64,000 bases of DNA from Methanomicrobiales archaeon HGW-Methanomicrobiales-1 (lineage in GTDB: Archaea > Halobacteriota > Methanomicrobia > Methanomicrobiales > Methanospirillaceae): contig PGYM01000002.1 in assembly GCA_002839675.1 (NCBI GenBank), positions 166,111 to 230,110 on the forward strand, written 5' to 3'. Under the pieces are notes generated by a model, which saw only the letters and a program-made list of their open reading frames with translations, did no database searches and had not been told where the DNA came from. How positions within the stretch are numbered: position 1 is the first letter of the stretch; each line of letters begins with the position of its first letter. Both the position numbers and the translations under genes were made by a program. Shown in pieces: positions 23,134-30,035 of this stretch.

Positions 23134-24063
23134 TTATTTTTTCTCTTTTTTGTAGAATTTTCCCAGGTCTTCGGGAAGCGTCATTATTACTGGTTCCAAG
23201 TGGAGCCGTTCCATGAAGGCGGAATCACTTGTTGATGAAGGGTTGGGATTGATCCGGGAAATCATGGAGCAGAACGCCCGGAATCCGTGATCATTGCCCG
23301 TCTTGTCAAAAAATAGCGACATATTGAACGCATGGGTTCCCAGTTCCCGGTATAATGCGATGATCTCGAGGATCCCCTGCGCTATAAGATCAACGTAACT
23401 TTCCAGTCCATCAAGCGTGGAGATGGGCAGGATTCCCCGTACCTCGCGCTCGCCCAGGGGAACCGCATGGGCAGACCAGAGAATCTCATCACCGAACAGG
23501 TACCGGTCGGTGGTTTTTTCCTGCTCCCTCACCGCATCCCAGTAGTTCCTGCCTTGTGTTTTTCGGTACTGCTCACTTGCGGAAAGATAGAGATCTACAA
23601 TATGTGATGGGCGGGAATCTGACAAACCCTGCATATGAGGATGGACCAGACTCGCCCCTGCGGATGGCAAAAAGTTCCAGTTGATGCTGGGGTAGCCATC
23701 TACTGGCCGGAGTGCCTCGATCTGGGAGAGAAGGGCATCAACAACGTGTTGCCTGCTGAAGGTGACGACCGCATGTTCACGGGTCATAACCGTTACCACA
23801 TGGCCTTCCCCGAAAGGAAAAAGGTTGGGAAACGTGACGCTTTCACCGCGGATGATCCGGGTGCCATCGGGAAATGTTGGGGTTACTGTCATTACTGTAT
23901 CACGGCAGAACGGGCAACCCTCCGCATTTGATGGCAGGTATAATGCCTGATCGATCTGTCGCTTTAGACGGCCCGGACTGATCCTGCACCGGAGGCCGGT
24001 GAGATGCTCCCCACGATACTGTAACGTGCCCCTGCCGGTGACAACTTCCCTTACCGAAAACAT
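23134..24063 (-). CDS. GalT-like nucleotidyltransferase (HIT superfamily)
   Basis: The 309-residue protein resembles galactose-1-phosphate uridylyltransferases. It has a CPFC zinc knuckle at 50-53, the substrate-site segment FPNLFPFGEGH at 78-88 and the active-site motif HPHMQ at 141-145 with the catalytic histidine. It is shorter than classical GalT (about 350) and the segment after HPH lacks other landmarks, so it belongs to the GalT-like archaeal branch; the sugar-1-phosphate or nucleotide it acts on is not known. It may supply UDP-sugars for surface glycans. Confidence 0.78.
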   Translation of the reverse strand: MFSVREVVTGRGTLQYRGEHLTGLRCRISPGRLKRQIDQALYLPSNAEGCPFCRDTVMTVTPTFPDGTRIIRGESVTFPNLFPFGEGHVVTVMTREHAVVTFSRQHVVDALLSQIEALRPVDGYPSINWNFLPSAGASLVHPHMQGLSDSRPSHIVDLYLSASEQYRKTQGRNYWDAVREQEKTTDRYLFGDEILWSAHAVPLGEREVRGILPISTLDGLESYVDLIAQGILEIIALYRELGTHAFNMSLFFDKTGNDHGFRAFCSMISRINPNPSSTSDSAFMERLHLEPVIMTLPEDLGKFYKKEKK

Positions 24064-24773: not shown

Positions 24774-25760
24774 TTATACGACGTATTTGCCGAGGAGGCG
24801 GATCGAGTTGGTCATGTCGGGGCCAAGGGGTGAGCCGAAGATGATCTGGGTGACACCGGCCTTGGTGAGGTCTTCGCATTTCTGCTTGACCATGTCAGGG
24901 GTTCCTGCAATGGTGAATGCATCGATCTCTTTATCTCCAACGAGTTCTCCAACGGTCTTGAAGTCGAACTTTCCGAGTGCTGCCTTGATCTTCGCAACAT
25001 TGGCAAGGTCGAGTCCGTGGCGGGTGAGCAGAGGTTCCGGTGAGCCGGCTGCAATAAATGCTGCAACAATCTTTGCTGCATTGCGGGCCTTCTTCTCGCT
25101 CTGGTCAATGGACATTGCAGTGTATGCACCGATGTCAAAGTTCTTCTTGCCTACCTTTTCGGTGGCTGCCTTGATGATCGGGATTGCAACGGCGAAATCC
25201 TTGGGGTTGGATGCATTGATCAATGCACCGTCACCAATTCTTCCGGCAAGGTCAAGGACCTTGGGGCCCTGTGCACCGATGTACATCGGGATACCCTTCT
25301 TTCCGGGCAGGGTGACACCGGTCAGCTTTGCTCCGTCATAGTCAAAGAACTGCATTCCTGACTTCTTGACTTCTTCACCGGCACAGAGCTTGCGGATCTG
25401 CACAACAGCTTCCTCGAGGCGTCCGACTGGCTTGTCGGGGCTGATTGCCAGCTTCGGGAGCGTGGAGAGGTCACCGGGACCAATCCCGAGGACTGCGCGT
25501 CCATCGGAGATCTCATTCAGCGTGCAGGCAAAGGATGCCATTGCTGCTGGGGTGTCGGTAAATGCGTTCATGATACCCGGTCCCATCTTAAGGGACGAAG
25601 TCGCCAGCGCGATGGCAGCGAGAGTGGGGTAGCAGTGGCGGTTGTTGTAGTGGTTTGTGATCCATGCGAAATCGATGTCTTTGGATTCTGCAAGTTTACA
25701 ATAGTTGACAACTTGCTTTACGTTGACATTTCCTGGTACAAATTCAATTCCATATGTCAA
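24774..25760 (-). CDS. mer: F420-dependent methylene-tetrahydromethanopterin reductase
   Basis: Reduces methylene-H4MPT to methyl-H4MPT with reduced F420, the step between Mtd and Mtr. The 328-residue product is a luciferase-like TIM barrel; FAWITNHYNNRHCYPTLAAIA, VLGIGPGDLSTLPKL and AGVTQIIFGSPLGPD are typical. The family start TYGIEFVPGN is reached only from a TTG codon at 25758-25760; no ATG or GTG is available in frame nearby, and GAGGTGA lies about 7 bases before it. A TATA-like TTTATTTAAA occurs at 25797-25806 on the same strand. Confidence 0.97.
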   Translation of the reverse strand: MTYGIEFVPGNVNVKQVVNYCKLAESKDIDFAWITNHYNNRHCYPTLAAIALATSSLKMGPGIMNAFTDTPAAMASFACTLNEISDGRAVLGIGPGDLSTLPKLAISPDKPVGRLEEAVVQIRKLCAGEEVKKSGMQFFDYDGAKLTGVTLPGKKGIPMYIGAQGPKVLDLAGRIGDGALINASNPKDFAVAIPIIKAATEKVGKKNFDIGAYTAMSIDQSEKKARNAAKIVAAFIAAGSPEPLLTRHGLDLANVAKIKAALGKFDFKTVGELVGDKEIDAFTIAGTPDMVKQKCEDLTKAGVTQIIFGSPLGPDMTNSIRLLGKYVV

Positions 25761-26191: not shown

Positions 26192-28507
26192 ATGAGAATA
26201 CTGGCAATCGGACTTGGGGGTGCAGGCTGCAGGATCGTCAACAGCCTGTATTCCATCGACCGTCGCAGCAGCAACGTGGCTTGTGTCAATGCGTTTGCTT
26301 TAGATGTCGATGACGTTACCTTAGCGCAGCTCAAAGGCCTGCCGGAAAGTGCAAAGATATACTTCCCTGCACTGGATCCCGGATTTGCGGATGCTGCTGG
26401 AGAGACTCCCCGGACTGCAACGATCGATATCGGTGAAGTTGTCTCAAGGATCCAGAACCTGGAATATGCAGAGACCGATGCAATCTTCATCTGTTGCGGG
26501 CTTGGCGGAAGCATGGTGGACGTGGCACCCCATATCATTACAGCTCTTCGGAACACGGTCGCAGAACCCATATTCGGTCTCGTCACGCTTCCCTGTCTTG
26601 CCGAAGGTGAGCGTAAATCCGGAAAGGCTGCGGATGATATCGATATGCTTTCACCCCTGCTCGATGGCATTATTCTCTTTGATAACGAGACATGGTATAA
26701 AAAAACCAGGTCACGTAAATCCACCCTGGCAAAAAGAGAGAAGAGTTTTGCAGAAAAGATGGGCTTTGTAAAAGAGCAACCTGCACTCTCTCCAAAACTT
26801 GCAACCTATCTCCTGTTAAACGATGCAATTGTCAAGAGGATCAGTCTTATCCTGCGGGCAGGGGAGTTCAAGGCTGACGGGGGACTTGAACTCGCAGAAG
26901 TGGTTCTGGATTCCGGAGAGATTCTCAATACAATGAAAGGGATGGGCTTCATCACCATCGGTTATGCTGTGGAACACCTTCCCCACGAGCCACTGGGTTT
27001 CCTGTCATGGCTGCGACCAGCAGGTGTATCCGCCGATGACCATAATAAAAAGGCATCTCGTATCGTTGAACTCGCAAAGCAGGCAATATATCACGAGATT
27101 TCAACACCGTGTGACATGACCAGCGCCCACAAGGCACTCGTTCTGGTTGCCGGGCCATCGCATGAACTCTCCATGAAAGGGTTCATGACCGTACGCAAAT
27201 GGATCGATCGCAGTATTGCCGGGCTCGAGACCCGTTCCGGGGATTATCCCGTGGTAAACACCCACAATGTTGCGATCATTGTCATGCTCTCCGGCCTGGA
27301 GAATATTCCCCGTATCGATGAGATCCGGGGGATCCGTGCTCAGGGAAGAACCGGGTACCAGAGACCTCCTGATACAGAAACCGAATCCATTTCTTTGGAT
27401 TCTATCACCTTGCCAAAGAGTCCGGGTAGAACCGCGGACACCGGCGCAATATCTCCAAAACAGAGAGAGAGGCAATCCCGTGACGAGATGGTCGTTCTTT
27501 CTGCAAGAGACAGCCCGGACCGGGATATCAGTTCGCGTTCTCCTTCCGCTCGTCCGCACATTCAAGAGAGTATTTCGGAAGGAACAGACCGAACCTCAAA
27601 AAAGGGGTTGCCGGATACAGATTATCTGCCACCAGCCGATACCAGATCCCCGACTGCAGCTCTCCATGAAAAAACCCGACAACCGCAGGATCTAAGGGAT
27701 TCCACACCACAACGCCGGGTTGTTGTCACGGAAGAACACGAAGCGCACCCTGACCGCTCATCCACCTTTAACCCTCCCCAGCCACACAAAGTATCACACC
27801 ACGATGCCCCGGCACCAGCCAGACAGCAGGAACCTGCCAGAGAAACGGGTGTGCACATCAATGAAAACCAGATACGGGCAAAAGACACTGAGCGCCAGAG
27901 GATTGAAAAAGACTTGCAGAGGCAGAGGATGATTGCCATATCCGGCCGGACCCTCAAGATAAATACCGATATTCCGAAAAAACCGGTGGCTTCACCAAGC
28001 CGGACGGTCATTCACCACGATTCGCCCGACCATGAACCCCATATTCGTGTGCAGGAGCGCGACAGACCAGTTCTCCCTGTAGAAAAACTCCCGGAACAAA
28101 AAACGGTCATTATTGGCAGGCGAAAAACTGCACCAATAATGGATCGCCCAATCTATGCGGAAGATCCAACTGACACAGAAACTGTGGTTCATGAGGATTT
28201 TTCCGTTTCATCAGAACCCGATACCTATACACCCAAAGCAGCCACTGACGGGAAAAATGTCAGCGTGAAAGAGCCGAGTTACCGGGCAAAAGATGATATT
28301 TTTGGGGGAAAGAGTGTTGCACGCTCATCGGTTCCAACAGCTCGGGACTCCGGGCTGGTCCATACGCAGCTCACCCCGAAAAATATCGCTGCGAATCCAG
28401 CGGAGGAGGAGAGAGAATCGCAGGATGATTCCAACACCGGACAGTCCCAGACTCCGGAGAAAAAACGGAAAATTACCACAAAAAAAGATGATATTTCATG
28501 GATCTGA
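26192..28507 (+). CDS. CetZ/FtsZ-like tubulin-superfamily protein with long disordered tail
   Basis: Residues 1 to about 390 form a tubulin/CetZ-like GTPase domain: ILAIGLGGAGCRIV at 3-16 (first nucleotide loop), FICCGLGGSMVDVAP at 99-113 where CetZ has GLGGGTGSG, EPIFGLVTLPCLAEGE at 125-140, and GIILFDNETWYKK at 159-171 (CetZ: LLVFDNDAW). The loop that should bind the GTP phosphates thus lacks the GTGxG part, so nucleotide binding may be altered or lost. Residues 390-771 are a charged, Pro/Ser/Arg-rich region without globular sequence, which no ordinary FtsZ or CetZ has. A role in cell shape or as a membrane or division scaffold is inferred from the fold only. Single gene, with NrpR on the opposite strand behind it. 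Confidence 0.75.
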   Translation: MRILAIGLGGAGCRIVNSLYSIDRRSSNVACVNAFALDVDDVTLAQLKGLPESAKIYFPALDPGFADAAGETPRTATIDIGEVVSRIQNLEYAETDAIFICCGLGGSMVDVAPHIITALRNTVAEPIFGLVTLPCLAEGERKSGKAADDIDMLSPLLDGIILFDNETWYKKTRSRKSTLAKREKSFAEKMGFVKEQPALSPKLATYLLLNDAIVKRISLILRAGEFKADGGLELAEVVLDSGEILNTMKGMGFITIGYAVEHLPHEPLGFLSWLRPAGVSADDHNKKASRIVELAKQAIYHEISTPCDMTSAHKALVLVAGPSHELSMKGFMTVRKWIDRSIAGLETRSGDYPVVNTHNVAIIVMLSGLENIPRIDEIRGIRAQGRTGYQRPPDTETESISLDSITLPKSPGRTADTGAISPKQRERQSRDEMVVLSARDSPDRDISSRSPSARPHIQESISEGTDRTSKKGLPDTDYLPPADTRSPTAALHEKTRQPQDLRDSTPQRRVVVTEEHEAHPDRSSTFNPPQPHKVSHHDAPAPARQQEPARETGVHINENQIRAKDTERQRIEKDLQRQRMIAISGRTLKINTDIPKKPVASPSRTVIHHDSPDHEPHIRVQERDRPVLPVEKLPEQKTVIIGRRKTAPIMDRPIYAEDPTDTETVVHEDFSVSSEPDTYTPKAATDGKNVSVKEPSYRAKDDIFGGKSVARSSVPTARDSGLVHTQLTPKNIAANPAEEERESQDDSNTGQSQTPEKKRKITTKKDDISWI

Positions 28508-28516
28508 TTGAAGGGA

Positions 28517-29467
28517 TCAGTTCGTCTCCATCACTTTTGAATAGGGGATATTCCCGGCCCCGATCTCTGTTTTAATCTCAATACCGTGTTCAACAGTATT
28601 CCCTATATAATTCAGCCCGCTGAAGGCAACAATTGAGAGCCGGTAGGGATTGCTGGGTAAATTGAAAACCTGCGTTCCCAAAGTGACGGGAAAGATGAAT
28701 CCACATTTGTTCATCTGTTGAATGGTCTCTTCAACCTGCGATTTCGCGGCGCAGGGCACTTCACGGACGTTTGCGAGGGCAATGCCGGTTTTTGTTCGGG
28801 CAAAACTGGAAATCGTGGTGAGCCCGGAGGAGATAAAAAGTTCCAGAGGATCGATGGTAGTTCCCCGGTAACCGATCAGATCCCTGAAGCGTTTGGGTGT
28901 ACCCTGTTCGATCTCCAGCCTTCCGCCAAATGCCATCTTAACCGGGATTCCCTTTCTCTGGAATACTCCATCCATGGAAATACTGCAAAGGGTCATCAGA
29001 CCTACCGATCCGGGAGGGATCCGGGGATCACGATCAATAATCCGGTAAGAGTTAAAAAATCCACAGCCGGATTTTGCCACTTCATCAAAGGCAATGGTAA
29101 CCTTTTCCAGAGCCTCGGCAGGCACAATAGAGAGATTATACGCAACGTCCCCGGTGCCGGTCTCCGGATCGAACGTGCTCCGGAACGCGAGCCGCTCGAG
29201 TTTTGATATGATAAATCCAATCCGGTCGTCAACAAGGGCATTGTCGGTCTCATCCCGGCCAAGAGTGGTCAATACCCTTCCCAGGTTCCCGACCTTCTCG
29301 GTAAACCCCATTGTATCAAGATAACTGAGATAGTACTGAACCGCACGGTCACTCAGGACAAAACCCCGCTCCGCCATCAGTTCTGAAAGTCGTTTTGCCC
29401 CCACCGGCTCACTGTGCTCTTTTAGGATTCTTAGTATTTCGATATATTTTCTTTCGGTACGAATCAT
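28517..29467 (-). CDS. NrpR-type transcriptional regulator
   Basis: NrpR proteins repress nitrogen-fixation and ammonium-assimilation genes in methanogens and are released by 2-oxoglutarate. The 316-residue product has an N-terminal winged helix (ERKYIEILRILKEHSEPVGAKRLSELM) and one DUF128 effector domain (LSIVPAEALEKVTIAFDEVAKSG; GFIFPVTLGTQVFNLPS). The ATG at 29467 is preferred to an in-frame GTG at 29473 that overlaps the upstream stop. The prototype has two DUF128 domains or two subunits, so a second partner may be encoded elsewhere. No nitrogen genes are next to it; a dUTPase-like gene precedes it. Confidence 0.85.
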   Translation of the reverse strand: MIRTERKYIEILRILKEHSEPVGAKRLSELMAERGFVLSDRAVQYYLSYLDTMGFTEKVGNLGRVLTTLGRDETDNALVDDRIGFIISKLERLAFRSTFDPETGTGDVAYNLSIVPAEALEKVTIAFDEVAKSGCGFFNSYRIIDRDPRIPPGSVGLMTLCSISMDGVFQRKGIPVKMAFGGRLEIEQGTPKRFRDLIGYRGTTIDPLELFISSGLTTISSFARTKTGIALANVREVPCAAKSQVEETIQQMNKCGFIFPVTLGTQVFNLPSNPYRLSIVAFSGLNYIGNTVEHGIEIKTEIGAGNIPYSKVMETN

Positions 29468-29469
29468 GA

Positions 29470-29907
29470 TCACTTCGCCTCCACAACACCCTTACTATCC
29501 TGGTAACGCCCCGAATATAATCGGGTTCCTTCCCTTACCTCATGAAGAACCATCTGTACAATCCGGTCATCCTTCTGTATAGGTATTGTATCTGCACCCA
29601 TATTGGTCAGGCAAAGCGTCAGTTGCCCCCGAAAACCCGGATCCACAAAGCCTGCACCCAGTAATACACCACGTCTCCCCATCGAGGATCTGCACCGCAA
29701 TGTTCCGGCAATATCCATAGGGAGTTCAACCCATTCCAGTGTCGGGACAAGCGTGCATACGCCTCGTTCCAGCACGATATTGCCGGCAGCGCGGAGATCA
29801 TAAGATGCAGGTTGCTGGCATTCAGCCCCATACGGGGTGATAACAAGTTTCCCTGCTGCGCTGTCGAGGTCGAGACGGCGCTCAATTTCAGGTGCAGACA
29901 AAATCAT
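29470..29907 (-). CDS. dUTPase/dCTP-deaminase superfamily protein, probably dUTPase
   Basis: The ATG at 29907 gives 145 residues (MILSAPEIERRLDLD). RCRSSMGRRGVLLGAGFVDPGFRGQLTLCLTNMG corresponds to the conserved core (key parts RSSMGRRG and GAGFVDPGFRGQL). In dCTP deaminase the segment after the DPGF motif carries the catalytic Glu (LEL or LEF); here the position reads TLCLTN, without Glu. The acid in FVDPGF remains, so a dUTP diphosphatase, which removes dUTP and makes dUMP, is more likely than a deaminase. It is also shorter than the about 190-200 residues of typical Dcd. dUMP is then the substrate of the thymidylate synthase at 37063. Confidence 0.75.
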   Translation of the reverse strand: MILSAPEIERRLDLDSAAGKLVITPYGAECQQPASYDLRAAGNIVLERGVCTLVPTLEWVELPMDIAGTLRCRSSMGRRGVLLGAGFVDPGFRGQLTLCLTNMGADTIPIQKDDRIVQMVLHEVREGTRLYSGRYQDSKGVVEAK

Positions 29908-29963
29908 CCAGTAGTTTATCGGTAGAAAATACTTAATATCTTTTGATTTAAAGAAGATGAGAA

Positions 29964-30035
29964 GGATCCATGGGGTAGAGGATATCCTCTTGGGCTTCGA
30001 ACCCAAGGACGCGGGTTCGATTCCCGCTGGGTCCG
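29964..30035 (+). tRNA. tRNA-Arg (anticodon TCG)
   Basis: Cloverleaf: acceptor GGATCCA paired with TGGGTCC, anticodon stem TTGGG/CCCAA with loop CTTCGAA (anticodon TCG, reading CGA), T arm GCGGG-TTCGATT-CCCGC and discriminator G. The D stem has only three good pairs. CCA is not encoded. Confidence 0.93.

Follow-up and report, generated by a model that had tools for sequence, protein, structure and literature searches.

In the window, the whole 64,000-nucleotide stretch of Methanomicrobiales DNA analysed here, a gene on the forward strand extends from an ATG at 26192 to a stop codon at 28507 and, according to the ORF call and its orthologues, encodes a protein of 771 aa, which we refer to as pseudo-CetZ. 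Comparison of gene neighbourhoods placed it between a gene for a mer-type, luciferase-like protein (F420-dependent methylene-H4MPT reductase; 24774..25760, reverse strand) and a convergent gene for an NrpR-like regulator (28517..29473, reverse strand), the latter followed by a dCTP deaminase/dUTPase-like gene (dcd; 29470..30006, reverse strand). Both downstream genes are in conserved synteny, and the order mtd, galT-like, mer, pseudo-CetZ, nrpR, dcd was observed in most genera. Positions 23134-24063 encode a 309-aa protein that adjoins mer across the order, appears to be of the galT/HIT type by eye, and had no Pfam match at E 0.001. As a clue to function the neighbours were set aside, since mer, mtd, nrpR, and dcd give the impression of an ancestral gene order frozen in place more than of a pathway.

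Predicted fold and loss of the nucleotide loops

The Pfam Tubulin family matched residues 2-170 with 39 bits, which is above its curated cut-off, and CetZ_C matched residues 205-379 with 144 bits (curated cut-off 21.6); a match to NCBIfam FtsZ was weak and far under its cut-off. The protein thus consists of an N-terminal tubulin/FtsZ GTPase-like domain (residues 1-170; 26192..26701), whose switch loops are lost, a CetZ_C domain (residues 205-379; 26804..27328) with the highest conservation in the protein, and a long tail. An AlphaFold2 model of the core, built on 32 orthologous cores, reached a pLDDT of 77 and a pTM of 0.80. Its best match in the PDB was CetZ1 (4b46; Foldseek E 2.8e-29; VIA-align Z 37.5, rmsd 2.4 over 316 residues), with CetZ2 (4b45) as the other closest solved structure. 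A full-length AlphaFold2 model was poor (pLDDT 41, shallow alignment) and was used for the tail helix only. An earlier note on this DNA had recognized fold hallmarks of CetZ/FtsZ and suggested structure prediction as a check; the domain matches and the core model confirm a predicted CetZ/tubulin fold.

To describe the nucleotide-binding face, loops were compared with those of ordinary CetZ. At the T4 position, the ordinary CetZ of the same genome reads GLGGGTGSGGSP and pseudo-CetZ reads GLGGSMVDVAP (residues 103-113; 26498..26530), so that, relative to the ordinary GLGGGTGSGG, the phosphate-binding GTGSG tip and one residue are missing; in the core model, a helix begins at residue 108, directly after GLGGS. 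The broken loop GLGGSMVD of the earlier note is therefore genuine, and the damage extends past T4 to T3, which has been deleted or scrambled, and to T2, where Asp replaces Asn. The T1 loop GLGGAGCRI (residues 7-15; 26210..26236) retains its glycines with the CetZ Gln changed to Gly, and part of T5 and the T6 Asn survive as well. None of 106 orthologues has an intact T4, the GTP-binding signature GGGTGSG being absent. Among the 46 residues of T1-T6 that are invariant in ordinary CetZ, 14 are kept in the Methanomicrobiales pseudo-CetZ. Within the latter, the pocket residues GxGGAG in T1, D38 in T2, GxGG at the base of T4, E138, N165, and N210 are invariant, and, judging from these base- and ribose-side positions, the pocket may hold some ligand.

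Pseudo-CetZ is universal in the order and accompanies an ordinary CetZ

All 135 Methanomicrobiales genomes searched, representing 28/28 genera, carry pseudo-CetZ, which rules out a restriction to Methanoregula; 43 loci were obtained from the contig search. In a 391-genome sample of the phylum, matches outside Methanomicrobiales were of the ordinary CetZ kind only, limited to the C-domain and at most 162 bits, and full-length matches of the pseudo-CetZ type were found only in Methanomicrobiales and Archaeoglobi.

The source genome encodes four tubulin relatives, namely two FtsZ proteins, an ordinary CetZ (L003, 392 aa) with an intact GLGGGTGSGG, and pseudo-CetZ, whose gene is unlinked to the ordinary cetZ and lies on a different contig. 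At least 134 of the 135 Methanomicrobiales genomes also gave a CetZ_C match that was stronger and of the ordinary kind, and T4 was intact in all 31 ordinary proteins read. Hence, homologues with an intact loop, which according to the earlier note would make this copy merely degenerate, do exist, but as a separate paralogue and not among the orthologues. The one genome without an ordinary CetZ match (G043) is 95% complete, and the absence may be an assembly gap. Several genomes of genus g17 (G005-G011) have two or three ordinary copies instead of one. At the C-terminus of the ordinary CetZ of Methanomicrobiales (L050-L079), the peptide (D/E)xLFE is strongly conserved and is a possible partner-binding motif. 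In G109, pseudo-CetZ (L091 / L028) is split by an in-frame TAA after about 199 residues into an N-domain ORF and an ORF for the C-domain plus tail; this is either a real nonsense mutation or an assembly error.

The T7 face is retained

In filaments of FtsZ and tubulin, the T7 loop reaches the nucleotide of the neighbouring subunit. The T7 loop of pseudo-CetZ, EVVLDSGEILNTM (residues 236-248; 26897..26935), aligns with that of 4b46 such that D240 and E243 correspond to CetZ1 D215 and E218, the latter of which we take to be the T7 glutamate. The acidic pair is kept in 103/103 full-length orthologues (Glu in 101, Asp in 2 at the second position). Across both eroded CetZ families, that of Methanomicrobiales and that of Archaeoglobi described below, the Asp of T7 is never replaced, and the Glu position is occupied by Glu or Asp.

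Conservation along the protein was reversed relative to ordinary CetZ. Among six genomes of different genera, mean pairwise identity of ordinary CetZ was 0.86 for the N-domain and 0.78 for T7 plus C-domain; for pseudo-CetZ of the same genomes, the corresponding values were 0.48 and 0.66, as would be expected if the nucleotide face had been lost and the T7 face kept. Against close relatives, and taken only where dS was unsaturated, dN/dS was 0.08-0.19 for the N-domain, 0.03-0.09 for the C-domain, and 0.23-0.41 for the tail, demonstrating that the core is under purifying selection. With ordinary residues kept at 0.60 versus 0.57, it is the whole C-domain that is conserved and not T7 alone, so that in Methanomicrobiales the persistence of T7 cannot be distinguished clearly from conservation of the C-domain in general. 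The contrast between T7 and T1-T6 was non-significant in Methanomicrobiales (Fisher p 0.28) and reached p 0.003 in the Archaeoglobi family.

A second, more eroded CetZ in Archaeoglobi

Twelve genomes of one family, putatively Archaeoglobaceae, were tested first, and each of them encodes, in addition to an ordinary CetZ, a second protein with CetZ_C, about 310 aa long. In the second protein, T1, T3, T4, and T6 are essentially gone and 3 of the 46 ordinary-invariant residues are kept, and a T7 stretch GEVV-DTSD--N is invariant. A wider search confined full-length relatives of this protein to the same family and one other. In a genome of the other family (G279), the gene for the eroded CetZ (L225 7286-8305, reverse strand) lies 147 bp upstream of an ordinary cetZ (L225 5987-7138) on the same strand. 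This adjacency is the sole direct gene-linkage support for a CetZ pair.

A phylogenetic tree contained one clade each for ordinary CetZ (support 97/98), for the form in Methanomicrobiales, and for that in Archaeoglobi. In this comparison, of the kind proposed in the earlier note, pseudo-CetZ lies outside ordinary CetZ, as a sister clade. A joint clade of the eroded Methanomicrobiales and Archaeoglobi (L162-L173) forms was neither supported nor rejected (AU p 0.20 and 0.32), since the long branches meet the outgroup.

A variable tail with a conserved terminal peptide

The tail (residues 389-771; 27356..28504) comprises 383 aa, is charged and rich in P, S, R, D, T, and E, and has a hydrophobic fraction of 0.25 compared to 0.44 in the core. 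It was modelled at a pLDDT of about 35 outside a helix at residues 558-583, but, because the full-length model was poor, the assignment of disorder rests mainly on composition and lack of conservation. The helix, ERQRIEKDLQRQR (27863..27940), has a pLDDT of about 60-70, and its pattern recurs in 29/84 tailed sequences. Thus, the charged, disordered tail of about 380 residues described in the earlier note holds for most of this region and fails for the helix. Additional islands conserved in close relatives are a TVII-K patch and a D-xx-L-xx-T-x-LK patch, and comparison of relatives also delineated an island DIFGGK ... RDSGLVHTQL at about residues 697-731 (28280..28384). Tail length varies: proteins of about 360-420 aa have none, and at the other extreme the protein is more than 1,100 aa long. 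The tail as an essential feature of the family was ruled out, because many genera do without it; in several, the protein is about 360-470 aa long and its tail is short or missing.

The protein terminates in DDISWI (28487..28504), and an acidic-hydrophobic-x-W-hydrophobic end was present in 39/60 tailed orthologues, compared with an expectation of 0.15 after shuffling. The motif is missing from some long-tailed orthologues, and reading the other frames past the stop in 12 of them recovered none. FtsZ2 of Methanomicrobiales ends in LEWVG, LVDWVM, or LIDFL. Archaeal SepF binds FtsZ C-terminal peptides bearing a GID-centred motif (PMC8178401). The pseudo-CetZ end has a shape similar to the LEWVG/LIDFL ends but is without GID; a docking partner common to pseudo-CetZ and FtsZ2 ends, e.g., archaeal SepF, is possible. 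Regarding the role in the envelope or a cytoskeletal scaffold considered in the earlier note, the resemblance of this conserved peptide to the archaeal FtsZ2 end is the sole hint.

Discussion

The CetZ fold, the lack of an intact loop in any orthologue, and its presence in all genomes of the order that were sampled lend good support to the proposal of the earlier note that this protein is a non-canonical, regulatory tubulin relative of methanogens. Being fixed across a whole order, it must have a function that matters, and pseudo-enzymes are known to regulate many enzyme families. What has been lost are the loops that hold and sense the gamma-phosphate of GTP (T3, the T4 tip, and the T2 Asn) and what is invariant are the T7 acids, a combination that points to a non-switching pseudo-GTPase. 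Pseudo-CetZ is likely to be non-polymerising. Since the T7 polymerisation and hydrolysis face is kept, it would more probably assemble with ordinary CetZ from one side than be inert.

With moderate confidence, we therefore favour a pseudo-GTPase with a CetZ fold, a sister of ordinary CetZ that does not switch and that would act as a cap or regulator by docking, through its T7 face, onto the end of its partner where GTP is bound, with the tail as a tether. In the docking, capping, and tethering steps that we infer, the T7 face of pseudo-CetZ would bind the nucleotide that an ordinary CetZ filament exposes at its growing end and supply Asp and Glu for GTP hydrolysis there. Its blind nucleotide face could then not properly accept the next subunit, and the filament would be capped, shortened, or turned over. 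The tail, where present, would serve as a long tether whose terminal peptide might bind a partner, possibly a binder of FtsZ2 ends such as archaeal SepF. A bolder version, which we put forward tentatively, is an ancient two-component tubulin system in which ordinary CetZ and a pseudo-tubulin reduced to its T7 half, acting as a one-sided, hydrolysis-triggering cap, would already have been paired in the common ancestor of Archaeoglobi and Methanomicrobiales, the tether being added later in many methanogens. With such a CetZ pair, the two faces of a tubulin protofilament could be studied apart from each other in a simple and testable manner, and the capping or turnover of an archaeal filament could be understood.

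The invariant pocket residues of the Methanomicrobiales form raise the alternative that the pocket is not dead but has changed its ligand, binding GDP/GMP, another nucleotide, or a dinucleotide without a gamma-phosphate switch, and that the protein serves as a sensor or constitutive subunit. Their pattern is that of a conserved pocket and not of random erosion, and GxGxxG together with an acidic residue ending strand 2 resembles Rossmann dinucleotide sites. However, T2 of tubulin is likewise acidic, and the 3/46 pocket residues kept by the Archaeoglobi relatives indicate that a ligand is dispensable in that branch; we regard a changed ligand as doubtful. Rather unlikely, in our assessment, is an independent, nucleotide-free scaffold or homopolymer functionally unlinked to ordinary CetZ. 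Such a protein would fit a locus of its own beside mer/nrpR/dcd, on a contig other than that of ordinary cetZ, and a long tail with motifs of its own, but it would have no obvious use for strictly conserved T7 acids in the absence of a neighbour's nucleotide, and the gene adjacency in G279 speaks against it.

That adjacency, the near-universal pairing with ordinary CetZ, and the intact T7 face would also suit an obligate, alternating heterofilament, in which pseudo-CetZ is the non-exchanging subunit in the manner of alpha-tubulin. Yet alpha-tubulin retains a full GTP site, the nucleotide face of pseudo-CetZ lacks the T3 and T4 contacts, and ordinary CetZ occurs elsewhere without such a partner, full-length matches being limited to Methanomicrobiales and Archaeoglobi, which makes this arrangement quite unlikely. 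A merely degenerate or decaying CetZ copy, as the broken T4 loop and the nonsense codon in G109 might suggest, is effectively refuted by its universality (135/135 genomes), conserved synteny, low dN/dS, and strongly conserved C-domain.

The cap or regulator that we favour can be set against known systems. Pseudo-CetZ shares its fold, C-domain, and T7 loop with ordinary CetZ1 and CetZ2 (4b46, 4b45), which are without the long tail; it differs in the absence of the T3/T4 GTP loops and in its sister-clade position. CetZ of Methanosaeta (Methanothrix) thermophila (3zid) has the same fold (VIA Z 34.4) but keeps its T4, SGGTGS, which pseudo-CetZ has lost. Brown and Duggin 2023 (PMC9856176) describe two CetZs per genome in Methanomicrobiales/Archaeoglobales, one Halobacteria-like and one deep-branching, and suggests functional pairs. 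The deep-branching CetZ is most likely pseudo-CetZ, an identification based on nearly all genomes having two CetZ_C proteins. Neither the portion of that article consulted nor the other literature searched mentions the lost phosphate loop, the retained T7, the long tail, or the adjacency in G279, and this literature likewise contained no pseudo-GTPase of the CetZ or FtsZ kind whose T7 face is live. The CetZ gene that a 2025 Methanoculleus study places in an operon with mer and mtd (PMC12008871) is probably the pseudo-CetZ locus. The thaumarchaeal FtsZ of Nitrosopumilus (PMC3684127) is likewise an archaeal FtsZ/tubulin relative without the GTP-binding motif, but it has lost T7 too and did not polymerise in a yeast assay, whereas pseudo-CetZ retains T7. 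A precedent for a regulatory reading is chloroplast ARC3, an inhibitor of FtsZ assembly (PMC5471200) whose descent from FtsZ we take from the title of a cited reference. ARC3 belongs to another lineage and carries a C-terminal MORN region.
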